A stretch of DNA of 39,845 bases from a virus (IMGVR_UViG_3300032241_001210:1-39845); one strand, 5' to 3'; positions 1,541 through 4,451 are shown, numbered from the stretch's first letter. Notes: generated by a model not told the origin, from the sequence alone. Program-made: numbers and translations.

Positions 1541-1728
1541 AGCCCCGCACCATGCCTCCGACGCTCAATGAAATCATCGCCGCGATCCGTGAGCGGGACG
1601 CCGGTTCGCCGCGTCGCCTGTGCGATCCGATCCGGTGGGATACCGCACTGGCGAATGAGGTTGAGCGGTTGCGAGCGCAGTTGTGGCCATCAGCAACCCG
1701 CGTCAGTTGGTCCGACCCCGCGAAATGA
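1537..1728 (+). CDS. Small hypothetical protein between the terminase genes, 63 aa
   Basis: The start codon lies in the ATGA overlap with the candidate small terminase, and its own stop overlaps the large-terminase start as ATGA at 1725-1728. The peptide (begins MKPRTMPPTLNEIIAAIRERD) is a short charged helix pair ending in 'NEVERLRAQLW'. It has no membrane segment or recognised domain. The two exact four-base junctions make it likely to be translated and coupled to the terminase genes. Confidence 0.65.
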   Translation: MKPRTMPPTLNEIIAAIRERDAGSPRRLCDPIRWDTALANEVERLRAQLWPSATRVSWSDPAK

Positions 1729-4451
1729 CCACGATCCAACTCGGCCACGATGTCGTGGATGTGGATCAAGCGTTGATCGCGTTGGACCGGGCTGAGTGCG
1801 CGGACAGTCTGGCGGCGTTCATCCGGCTGGCGTGGCCGATCGTCGAACCCGGCCAGCCTTATACCCATGGATGGCATATTGACGCCATGTGCGAGCATCT
1901 GGAGGCTATCACATGGCAGGAAATCCCTGATTACAATCGCCTGTTGATAAACATTCCGCCCGGGACGATGAAAAGCCTGTGCGTGTCGGTGTTCTGGCCC
2001 GCCTGGGAATGGGGGCCGCAAAACATGCCGCATTTACGGTATTTGTGCGCCAGTCATTCGCTTGATATTGGCGTTCGGGACAGTATGAGGATGCGGCGGC
2101 TGGTGTCGAGCGATTGGTTTCAGGACCGATGGCCGCATGTCGTCCTGACCAAGGATCAGAACCAGAAAACCAAGTTTGAAAACACCGCGACGGGGTTCCG
2201 GCAGGCTGTGGCGGCCGGGTCTATCACTGGTTCGCGGGGAGACCGGGTGATTTGTTTCCCGGCTGATGAACTGGTCCATACAGAACATGGGTTGCGTTCG
2301 ATTGGTTCAATCGTCGAGGATAGATCGGCGGTCAAAGTATGGTCCGCCGATCCGCTCACCGGCAAACGGGAACTGAAACGGGTTATCGGCTGGCACAGGA
2401 ACCCGGCATCCCAATTGGTTGAAGTGGGTTTGTCCGATGGGTCACGGTTCCGATGCACGCCCGATCATCGGATCTGGACCGGTAGAGGATGGGTCGCGGC
2501 CGGGCTTTTGCAGGCCAGTGACCGTATTCCAAACTTTCCCGCGTCGAATGGCTTTTATAAGCGTGTGGCTGACGGCATACCTCTGGCCAAGAGCGCGGCT
2601 GCTTTCATGCGACGCCATGATTTCCTTGACCTGATCGGCCGTCAATTTATGCCAGGGCGTGGCTTCTCCTTGCAAGATATAGCTGCCGCGACGCTTGCCT
2701 TCGGTAATCGCGGACCAATTTGCGCCTCGCCTGATTTCTTGTATGGTTCCGCGTTTGACGCCATACCGCGCCGCAAGCGTATCGGCGGTTTCTCCGCTGA
2801 TGGCGATCTCGGCCGCTTGTTCGCGGGTCAGGATCGCGCCCGGTCTGTTTTCCAAAACCGGGAACGTCCCATGTCGTTTGGCGTCCGCGATATTGTCGGC
2901 GCGCGTTCCATAGCGAAGATTGAACAGTCGGCTATCCGAGCGGTTGCCGTTATGATGGCACACTTCCTGGCCCGGTCCAGGCGGCCCGATAAACGCCAGC
3001 ATCACGACCTGATGGACAAACATTTGCGTCGCTTGTCCGTCCCGGTTGGCGTTAAATCGCGGGTAGCCTTTGGTTGGAGGCGTTTTAAGGATTTTCTCCG
3101 GGATCGTGAGGCTTCCCCTTCCGATCCTTGGGACGATGCGGCCTTCGCTGCGAACGCGGCCCATATCGCTGACGCTGTAAAGTCCTTCAAAGCCAGGAAT
3201 CGGTTTCCATTGTTTGTGAGGGACGCCGGACATGTGGATGAGACCTTTTGTTTGACGGTAGAGGATCATCATACATTCTTTGTGGGGAATGGCAATGGTG
3301 TATTGGTTGCCAACTGCGATGATCCCCATTCAGTCGAGGGCGCGGCGTCGGATCAAATGCGTCAGACAACCATTGAATGGTTTACGGAGGCGGTTCCTAC
3401 CCGCCTGAACAATCCTGACAGTAGCGCGATTGTCGTGGTCATGCAGCGGTTGCATGAGGAAGACGTGTCTGGGGTCATCCTTGACCGGCAACTAGGCTAC
3501 GACCACCTGTGCTTGCCAATGCGGGCCACGTTATGGCGGAAGGAACACCCAACGAGGATTGGCTTTGTTGATCCGCGTGAGGAAGAAGGGGAATTGTTGT
3601 TTCCCGAGCGGTTTCCCGAAGAAGTGGTCGCGCGTGACGAGCGGGTGATGGGGATTTATGCGACCGCCGGACAGTTCCAACAAGAGCCCGCGCCACGCGG
3701 CGGTGGCGTCATCAAGCGCGAATGGTGGCAGCTTCACACTGAGAAAACTTACCCGCCGATGGATTTCATTATCGCGTCACTGGATACCGCCTACACCGAA
3801 AAGACCGAGAACGACTTTTCCGCGCTGACGGTCTGGGGCGTGTTTTCCGGTGCAATGGTCTCATGGGCGAACAAGTGGGCCGCGCCGGGATCGCGATTGA
3901 TGGATATTGGGGATCAAACGCTTCGGTTTGATGAGGCGATGCAGGTCAAGTCCCGTTCGGACCAATTCGGCGGCGACTTGCCGCGCGCCATGCTCATGAC
4001 GGCATGGGCTGAGCGGCTGGAATTGCACGCGCTGGTGTTGAAGGTCGCGCAGACCTGCCGGGCGATGAAGGTGGATCGTCTGTTGATCGAAGACAAGGCG
4101 GCGGGCCATTCCGTGGCGCAGGAATTGCGGCGGCTATTCGGCCATGAGGATTGGTCCGTCCAACTGGTGAACCCTGGCCGGATTGATAAACTGGCGCGGC
4201 TGCACTCGGTGTCGCATCTGTTCGCGGAGGGGATGATCTACGCCCCGGACAAAGCGTGGGCGGATATGGTCATTCAGCAAGTGAGTGTGTTTCCGAAGGG
4301 GAAGCACGACGATTTGGTTGATTGCGTTAGCATGAGTTTGCGCCACCTTCGCGACGCGGGTATGCTGAAACGTGCGCCGGAATGGGCCGCTGATGCGGCG
4401 GATGGGATGCGTGCAACGGGCGGCGATCCGCCGCCGATTTATCCGGGGTGA
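1725..4451 (+). CDS. terL: Terminase large subunit precursor with intein, 908 aa
   Basis: This is the DNA-packaging motor, acting at the portal. The precursor has an ATPase domain with Walker A 'PPGTMKS' at residues 78-84. It is then interrupted by an intein (177-530) placed immediately before the acidic pair of Walker B ('GDRVI' / 'CDDPHSVEG'). The nuclease domain carries Asp687 ('LDTAYTEKTENDFSAL'), Asp790 ('LLIEDKAAG') and Asp862/863 ('KHDDLVD'). Removing 354 intein residues leaves 554 aa, a normal size for TerL. I chose ATG 1725 because it forms an ATGA overlap with the upstream gene. A GTG at 1683 would add 14 residues. The 'ALIALDRAECADSL' opening is typical of TerL of alphaproteobacterial phages. 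Confidence 0.95.
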   Translation: MTTIQLGHDVVDVDQALIALDRAECADSLAAFIRLAWPIVEPGQPYTHGWHIDAMCEHLEAITWQEIPDYNRLLINIPPGTMKSLCVSVFWPAWEWGPQNMPHLRYLCASHSLDIGVRDSMRMRRLVSSDWFQDRWPHVVLTKDQNQKTKFENTATGFRQAVAAGSITGSRGDRVICFPADELVHTEHGLRSIGSIVEDRSAVKVWSADPLTGKRELKRVIGWHRNPASQLVEVGLSDGSRFRCTPDHRIWTGRGWVAAGLLQASDRIPNFPASNGFYKRVADGIPLAKSAAAFMRRHDFLDLIGRQFMPGRGFSLQDIAAATLAFGNRGPICASPDFLYGSAFDAIPRRKRIGGFSADGDLGRLFAGQDRARSVFQNRERPMSFGVRDIVGARSIAKIEQSAIRAVAVMMAHFLARSRRPDKRQHHDLMDKHLRRLSVPVGVKSRVAFGWRRFKDFLRDREASPSDPWDDAAFAANAAHIADAVKSFKARNRFPLFVRDAGHVDETFCLTVEDHHTFFVGNGNGVLVANCDDPHSVEGAASDQMRQTTIEWFTEAVPTRLNNPDSSAIVVVMQRLHEEDVSGVILDRQLGYDHLCLPMRATLWRKEHPTRIGFVDPREEEGELLFPERFPEEVVARDERVMGIYATAGQFQQEPAPRGGGVIKREWWQLHTEKTYPPMDFIIASLDTAYTEKTENDFSALTVWGVFSGAMVSWANKWAAPGSRLMDIGDQTLRFDEAMQVKSRSDQFGGDLPRAMLMTAWAERLELHALVLKVAQTCRAMKVDRLLIEDKAAGHSVAQELRRLFGHEDWSVQLVNPGRIDKLARLHSVSHLFAEGMIYAPDKAWADMVIQQVSVFPKGKHDDLVDCVSMSLRHLRDAGMLKRAPEWAADAADGMRATGGDPPPIYPG
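2442..3233 (-). CDS. HNH homing endonuclease encoded antisense within the TerL intein, 263 aa
   Basis: The protein has a NUMOD4 opening ('WKPIPGFEGLYSVSDMGRV', residues 9-27) and an HNH_3-type domain with His74, His93/His94, Asn95 and Asn105 ('VCHHNGNRSDSRLFNL'). Two homologous DNA-binding helix-turn-helix repeats follow, at about 135-177 and 197-239 ('LTxxQ...YxV...I..IRRG..W'). This is the full layout of a phage homing endonuclease. I chose ATG 3233 because the NUMOD4 domain starts right after it and AAAGG lies about a dozen bases upstream. The frame continues to 3329 upstream. The gene lies wholly inside the intein on the opposite strand, codon-in-register with TerL. Its last ~25 residues overlap intein block B and are probably not part of the folded enzyme. 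Confidence 0.9.
   Translation of the reverse strand: MSGVPHKQWKPIPGFEGLYSVSDMGRVRSEGRIVPRIGRGSLTIPEKILKTPPTKGYPRFNANRDGQATQMFVHQVVMLAFIGPPGPGQEVCHHNGNRSDSRLFNLRYGTRADNIADAKRHGTFPVLENRPGAILTREQAAEIAISGETADTLAARYGVKRGTIQEIRRGANWSAITEGKRRGSYILQGEATPWHKLTADQVKEIMASHESSRALGQRYAVSHTLIKAIRRGKVWNTVTGLQKPGRDPSSTGPDPMIGRASEP
3268..3295 (-). promoter_or_regulatory. Promoter candidate for the antisense HNH gene
   Basis: On the minus strand TTGCCA (3295-3290) is followed by 16 bases and TATGAT (3273-3268), each one mismatch from consensus. The predicted start near 3261 leaves a leader of about 28 bases that contains the AAAGG ribosome site. The promoter lies inside the DNA encoding intein blocks F and G, so the same bases serve splicing and transcription of the nuclease. 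Confidence 0.5.

Follow-up and report, generated by a model that had tools for sequence, protein, structure and literature searches.

The window analysed in this work, a viral record of 39,845 bases, contains on its plus strand a single open reading frame (ORF) for a precursor of the large terminase subunit (TerL) of 908 amino acids (aa), which is predicted to be reduced to 554 aa once the intein that interrupts it is taken out (Table 1). The preliminary description of this locus had placed an intein within TerL and a homing endonuclease gene (HEG) on the strand opposite to it. The intein is well supported by splicing-block profiles, a modelled HINT fold and invariant splicing residues. It spans TerL residues 177-530, with the ends CFPADEL...LVAN/C (slashes mark splice junctions), and the precursor matches the NCBIfam profiles intein_Nterm (E=5.7e-9) and intein_Cterm (E=3.8e-5). 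Once joined, the exteins can be aligned from end to end with the intein-free TerL of L007 (L-numbers label other loci or contigs) at 72% identity and 1% gaps, the junction reading RVI/CDDPHS in the occupied window versus RVIIDDPHS in the empty gene. In the AlphaFold2 model of the intein, the predicted local distance difference test (pLDDT) is mostly above 89 for residues 1-92 and 321-354, and the top PDB matches are solved mini-inteins (Mtu RecA, DnaX and DnaB; E about 1e-7). Residues 148-312 and most of 99-147 stay at or below a pLDDT of about 50. Across 34 family members, C1, T69, H72 and N354 are invariant and TIGR01445 is matched by all, TIGR01443 by 23; a cysteine occupies position +1 of the C-extein in all loci.

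No nuclease domain is found in the plus frame of the intein. The nuclease lies only in the codon-aligned frame of the minus strand, where an ORF of 295 aa (2442-3329), in exact codon register with TerL, matches the Pfam domains NUMOD4 (E=1.6e-11) and HNH_3 (E=4e-9). The earlier view of a complete antisense NUMOD4/HNH nuclease thus holds for both domains and has to be amended for the start at 3329: the true start is most likely the ATG at 3233, giving a protein of 263 aa, because the 32 preceding residues are the antisense of intein block F/G and because the starts of homologues (equivalent of Met33) and a Shine-Dalgarno-like site fall there. H93 and N105 are invariant in the nuclease family and H74 is nearly so. 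The family profile matches the sequence of I-HmuI (PDB 1u3e) with E=1.4e-21, while the AlphaFold2 model of the window nuclease (mean pLDDT 84) matches the fold of the same enzyme with E=1.5e-7 and displays the two DNA-binding repeats that had been anticipated, as helix-turn-helix motifs. As judged from sequence and predicted fold, the antisense product is an I-HmuI-like NUMOD4/HNH homing endonuclease.

The signals for expression of this nuclease appear to be embedded in the splicing domain. The start codon (29 ATG and 2 GTG among 31 genes) is always opposite a histidine codon of the intein (CAT or CAC), and the conserved block F (..T-F-C-L..), when read in antisense, gives AAAGGT or AGGAG, which are Shine-Dalgarno-like, at the right distance. 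Over the family, pairing to the anti-Shine-Dalgarno reaches a mean of -5.2 kcal/mol versus -1.9 kcal/mol under synonymous recoding of block F (z=-8.7), and the ribosome-binding site of the nuclease is likely to lie within the antisense of this block. Further upstream, still in the antisense of the intein, the best promoter-like site is located 34 nt from the start, a distance kept in about half of the relatives; relative to synonymous recoding, the family reaches z=5.3, which is suggestive of a promoter. In L102, L106, L107 and L118, the start of the nuclease is shifted, lying deeper within block F or farther away from it, and L102 and L118 have a strong AGGAGG-like site of their own.

Table 1. 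Features of the TerL intein and its antisense endonuclease gene in the window, followed by related TerL inteins with a nuclease in another sense frame (positions in their own contigs).
Feature	Position	Strand	Basis or remark
TerL precursor ORF	1725..4451	+	psiM2_ORF9 / terminase profile E=3.3e-13
Intein, 354 aa	2253..3314	+	Site in Walker B motif, GDRVI/C..N/CDDPHS; empty gene GNRVIIDDPHS
N-terminal splicing half of HINT domain, residues 1-92 (C1, TPDH block B)	2253..2528	+	pLDDT mostly 89-97; TIGR01445
C-terminal splicing half of HINT domain, residues 313-354 (block F FCLTVEDHH, block G ..LVAN)	3189..3314	+	pLDDT 92-96 for 321-354; TIGR01443
Forward reading of antisense gene, residues 99-312, unstructured linker	2547..3188	+	pLDDT mostly <50; forward pN >= pS in most pairs
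Homing endonuclease gene, 263 aa + stop, codon-aligned with TerL	2442..3233	-	ORF, Pfam matches, AlphaFold2 model
NUMOD4 domain, residues 8-59	3057..3212	-	Pfam E=1.3e-11; in 31/31 members scanned
HNH_3 nuclease domain, residues 72-114	2892..3020	-	Pfam E=3.4e-9; in 31/31 members scanned; H93 and N105 invariant
Two helix-turn-helix DNA-binding repeats, residues 137-177 and 199-239, after HNH	2517..2825	-	AlphaFold2 model (predicted)
Endonuclease start codon (most likely)	3231..3233	-	Opposite intein His codon
Shine-Dalgarno-like AAAGGT, 9 nt before ATG, antisense to block F codons for T-F-C	3243..3248	-	Family-wide excess
Promoter-like TTGCCA-16-TATGAT upstream of endonuclease	3268..3295	-	10/12, best site in region; suggestive
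+1-frame zinc-finger HNH inteins	L020:2904-4004, L023:1869-2969, L227:3001-4101, L228:3001-4101, L229:836-1936
+2-frame HNH_3 inteins	L072:3721-4620; L232 Tetrasphaera phage TJE1; L233 Acinetobacter phage Highwayman; L234 Rhodobacteraceae phage LS06-2018-MD07

The arrangement had been presented as a single case. It is real, and it recurs in 32 distinct viral or prophage loci (window included), gathered by searches of viral contigs, for which either the nuclease or the intein served as query, and by one scan of bacterial genomes. In all of them, the nuclease is in the same antisense register and the host gene is a terminase, and the intein interrupts it in the Walker B motif at one of four adjacent positions. 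The insertion points in L002, L036, L113 and the window, which comprise C-DD, C-V-DD, C-L-V-DD and C-I-I-I-DD, show a target that slid by 0 to 3 codons between lineages. The scan of the genome collection returned only one prophage-like member, L219, in a contig of a Clostridia metagenome-assembled genome, and E. coli genomes gave no match to the intein. Matches in Xanthomonas phage SAC and a Microcystis phage were set aside as free-standing genes, lying beside rather than inside their neighbours. In L005 (reverse strand), one TerL is interrupted by two inteins, an in-frame LAGLIDADG-type element in the Walker A loop and an antisense-HEG element in Walker B. An assembly artefact, one of the explanations that could have overturned the initial proposal, is excluded by the same arrangement in independent metagenomes, by identical copies in separate datasets (e.g. 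L036/L038) and by the cultured Escherichia phage BUCT618 (OM735461), in whose record the 789-aa precursor figures as a terminase large subunit and the nuclease has no annotation. The BUCT618 intein ends at N323, and the part of terL upstream of it resembles genes of Pseudomonas phage MR14 and Idiomarinaceae phage 1N2-2, which are candidates for an empty site.

We consider it very probable that the window holds a mobile intein with its HEG on the antisense strand, codon-aligned to the host frame. Several observations weigh against this reading. In most members, the usual penultimate histidine before the C-terminal asparagine (window 3303-3314) is replaced by alanine or serine; inteins without this histidine are unusual, yet tolerated in some cases. 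For the window copy alone, the Shine-Dalgarno signal is not significant (p=0.43) and the promoter signal is by itself not statistically decisive. Finally, distances between nucleases follow those between splicing domains (r=0.62) and between exteins (r=0.72) instead of conflicting with them, so long co-descent has been common and the trees do not demonstrate recent cross-lineage homing. This last point gives some room to the view that the intein and its antisense HEG are genuine but no longer mobile, the nuclease being vertically inherited or domesticated and possibly maintained through another role. We regard this as unlikely, since the patchy presence of the intein, the strong purifying selection on the nuclease and the existence of decayed states are what homing predicts. 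About 70 TerL genes display an exact, gap-free empty junction, and the mini-intein that the preliminary description had suggested looking for among relatives was found in L156 (579-1031; 151 aa, no trace of the HEG). Intermediate states are provided by L152 (1569-2273), in which the catalytic half of the antisense HEG is deleted, and by L157 (3747-4208), a 154-aa intein with an antisense remnant of about 30 residues; the forward frame is open in all three. Empty, full, decayed and mini states, as classified from sequence, fit all those predicted by the homing cycle. The descent of the nucleases is less simple. The smallest clade holding the intein-borne enzymes (support 0.97) also contains six free-standing ones, so a single monophyletic origin is not upheld and escape from inteins or repeated capture is possible.

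Among published elements, ShiLan comes nearest. Inserted in the methylases of mycobacteriophages, it has its HNH gene out of frame on the same strand and lacks a splicing domain (Arsenault, Gosselin, Gogarten 2025, PMC11855218). Together with the Pacc40 gp60 insertion, it resembles the window element in placing an HNH gene in another frame of an in-frame insertion devoid of host-frame stops (PMC11855218). It shows that an out-of-frame HNH insertion need not have a splicing domain, and the window could by analogy be read as a non-splicing insertion tolerated in the protein, or as a self-splicing RNA intron removed at the RNA level. Both are very improbable: the complete set of intein splicing residues and the HINT fold are present, an unspliced loop of 354 aa in the Walker B motif should be fatal, and Rfam gives no match at E<1 on either strand between 1700 and 3900. 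The two elements also differ in their design, the ShiLan gene occupying the third frame of the same strand in a methylase with no detectable splicing domain, whereas here an antisense nuclease is carried by a full HINT intein; the window element is therefore not of the ShiLan type.

The two frames are exactly in codon register, as first described, so stops in TerL can arise only from the nuclease codons TTA, CTA and TCA, and the window nuclease contains none of them. Taken alone, this absence departs only weakly from chance (P=0.05 for none, with an expectation of 2.9), and high-GC genomes use few of them. One could thus suppose that high GC content leaves the forward frame open incidentally and that nothing preserves it, TerL being dead or otherwise expressed. 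The family makes this highly improbable. Among 945 leucine and serine codons of the 32 intein-borne nucleases, TTA, CTA and TCA are never used, while the codon usage of the rest of each contig predicts about 167; the joint log10 P of -88 assumes independent loci and is too extreme given their relatedness, although synonymous sites are near saturation between the main lineages. A cleaner control is offered by 23 free-standing relatives, in which 102 of 513 leucine and serine codons (20%) belong to this set. In addition, members with a GC content of 31-41% (L103, L109, L113, L118, L124, L148 and L219) should each contain 7 to 17 of these codons (17 for L103 and L219) and have none, and the remaining two antisense frames of the same nuclease genes hold 236 and 586 stops. 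As our initial intein scan required both splicing blocks in one stop-free frame, which forces zero stops, it was repeated from nuclease matches alone with stops masked: all loci with both splicing blocks opposite the nuclease were open, and none was closed. The evidence for stop avoidance across the 32 loci is overwhelming.

Purifying selection acts on the nuclease strand. In 17 pairwise comparisons of the shared stretch, differences fall at nuclease codon positions 1/2/3 875/619/1763 times, and the nonsynonymous proportion (pN) of the nuclease is far below the synonymous one (pS), e.g. 0.03 versus 0.34 for L113/L117. Read forward, the same stretch has a pN that roughly equals or exceeds pS. 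The N-terminal splicing block is under ordinary purifying selection in the forward frame. The middle of the intein is thus maintained as a nuclease and only kept stop-free as TerL sequence, and its ~215 residues have no structure in the model and no constraint at the protein level, since the DNA there encodes the antisense enzyme. That the forward middle is instead a real domain, with the ORF of the minus strand as its by-product, can be dismissed almost entirely: close relatives do align there at 29-38% identity, but apart from the splicing blocks no Pfam or NCBIfam domain and no confident fold is found in this reading, which agrees with its description as meaningless from the start, and on the minus strand two curated domains are recognised in 31/31 members and the I-HmuI structure is matched as well.

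Nucleases hidden in a foreign frame are not restricted to the antisense strand. In five contigs (L020/L226, L023 and L227-L229), this Walker B site is occupied by a different intein, 367 codons long in every case, whose +1 sense frame encodes an HNH nuclease (E=4.5e-5 and 9.5e-5 against Pfam HNH for the two members tested); both frames are open in all. At a downstream TerL site, the inteins of L072 and of three cultured phages (TJE1, Highwayman and LS06-2018-MD07) have an HNH_3 gene in the +2 sense frame, the phage precursors being annotated simply as terminase. A further, separate intein (L205:4010-4972) also has an HNH_3 gene in the +2 frame (E=1.8e-18). Hidden HEGs are therefore recurrent in inteins, and those with an antisense HEG form the largest group found. 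This group of terminases also includes conventional inteins with an in-frame nuclease of the LAGLIDADG type (L080 and the first intein of L005).

Published inteins have their endonuclease nested as a domain between blocks B and F, where the place of insertion is conserved (PMC6801210). The window element shares with class 1 inteins that have an in-frame LAGLIDADG or HNH nuclease the HINT domain with C1, TxxH, C-terminal asparagine and Cys+1, the location of the nuclease at this conserved site (PMC6801210), the choice of a catalytic motif of phage terminase as target, and the range of empty, mini and decayed alleles. It differs from them, and from the definition of a classical full-length intein, in that the nuclease is not in the intein's own frame. 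It is encoded on the opposite strand in codon register and would be a separate protein made from a separate transcript, while the intein protein holds an unstructured antisense translation in place of a nuclease domain. The initial remark that antisense HEGs are known in some group I introns and not in inteins agrees with the open literature: a search of 5.4 million open-access papers, subscription papers being outside it, brought up no intein with an endonuclease encoded on the opposite strand or in an alternative frame, and antisense HEGs do occur in nuclear group I introns of Didymium (L2066 and S956; PMC9548176). These introns likewise combine a splicing element with an antisense homing endonuclease and possibly an internal promoter (PMC9548176), but introns in rDNA need no open frame, whereas here the antisense gene must also be translatable within a host protein. 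With I-HmuI, from introns of Bacillus phages, the window nuclease has in common the order NUMOD4, HNH_3 and helix-turn-helix (PDB 1u3e), and it is distinguished by being intein-borne and antisense, by its two helix-turn-helix repeats and by the purge of TTA, CTA and TCA. Avoidance of these three codons is also a feature of ambigrammatic narnaviruses, which have two long codon-aligned ORFs on opposite strands in the -0 register, the only reverse frame in which stops can always be removed synonymously (PMC6884476). This property may explain the success of this register, and the window intein is ambigrammatic in the same -0 sense. The reverse ORF of narnaviruses has no known function, whereas here the antisense frame encodes a recognised enzyme and the sense frame a mostly discarded loop.

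From family membership and sequence conservation, splicing, nuclease expression, cleavage of empty sites and homing can be expected to proceed as follows. The TerL precursor would be translated through the antisense-encoded stretch, producing a loop of ~215 unstructured residues at the usual place of the endonuclease, between block B and block F. The two HINT halves would then excise the intein and restore a TerL with a cysteine instead of an isoleucine in Walker B. The nuclease would be made separately from the minus strand, with its ribosome-binding site and probably its promoter inside the antisense of blocks F/G. As suggested by its family and distribution, it would cut intein-free terL, and repair would copy the intein in. 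Selection keeps the forward frame open solely by barring TTA, CTA and TCA from the nuclease gene. On a broader scale, terminase inteins have probably gained HNH HEGs repeatedly in foreign frames (antisense -0, sense +1 and +2), with the nuclease expressed apart and the intein merely stop-free; the antisense form would represent an old and widespread ambigrammatic mobile lineage in which block F doubles as ribosome-binding site and start codon of the nuclease.

To conclude, accounts in the open literature nest the endonuclease of an intein in its own frame, and the genetically inseparable partners are here different proteins encoded on different strands. Surveys of in-frame inteins miss such elements, as illustrated by the precursors of BUCT618, TJE1 and Highwayman, annotated as plain TerL with the nuclease unannotated. 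The system is a natural and functional antisense overlap in which both products are recognisable and the selective cost is measurable as the complete loss of three codons, with free-standing relatives as a control. Besides, the invasion of mini-inteins by HEGs can be explained from it in a testable way: any frame may suffice if the host frame is open, and the aligned reverse frame can always be purged synonymously.

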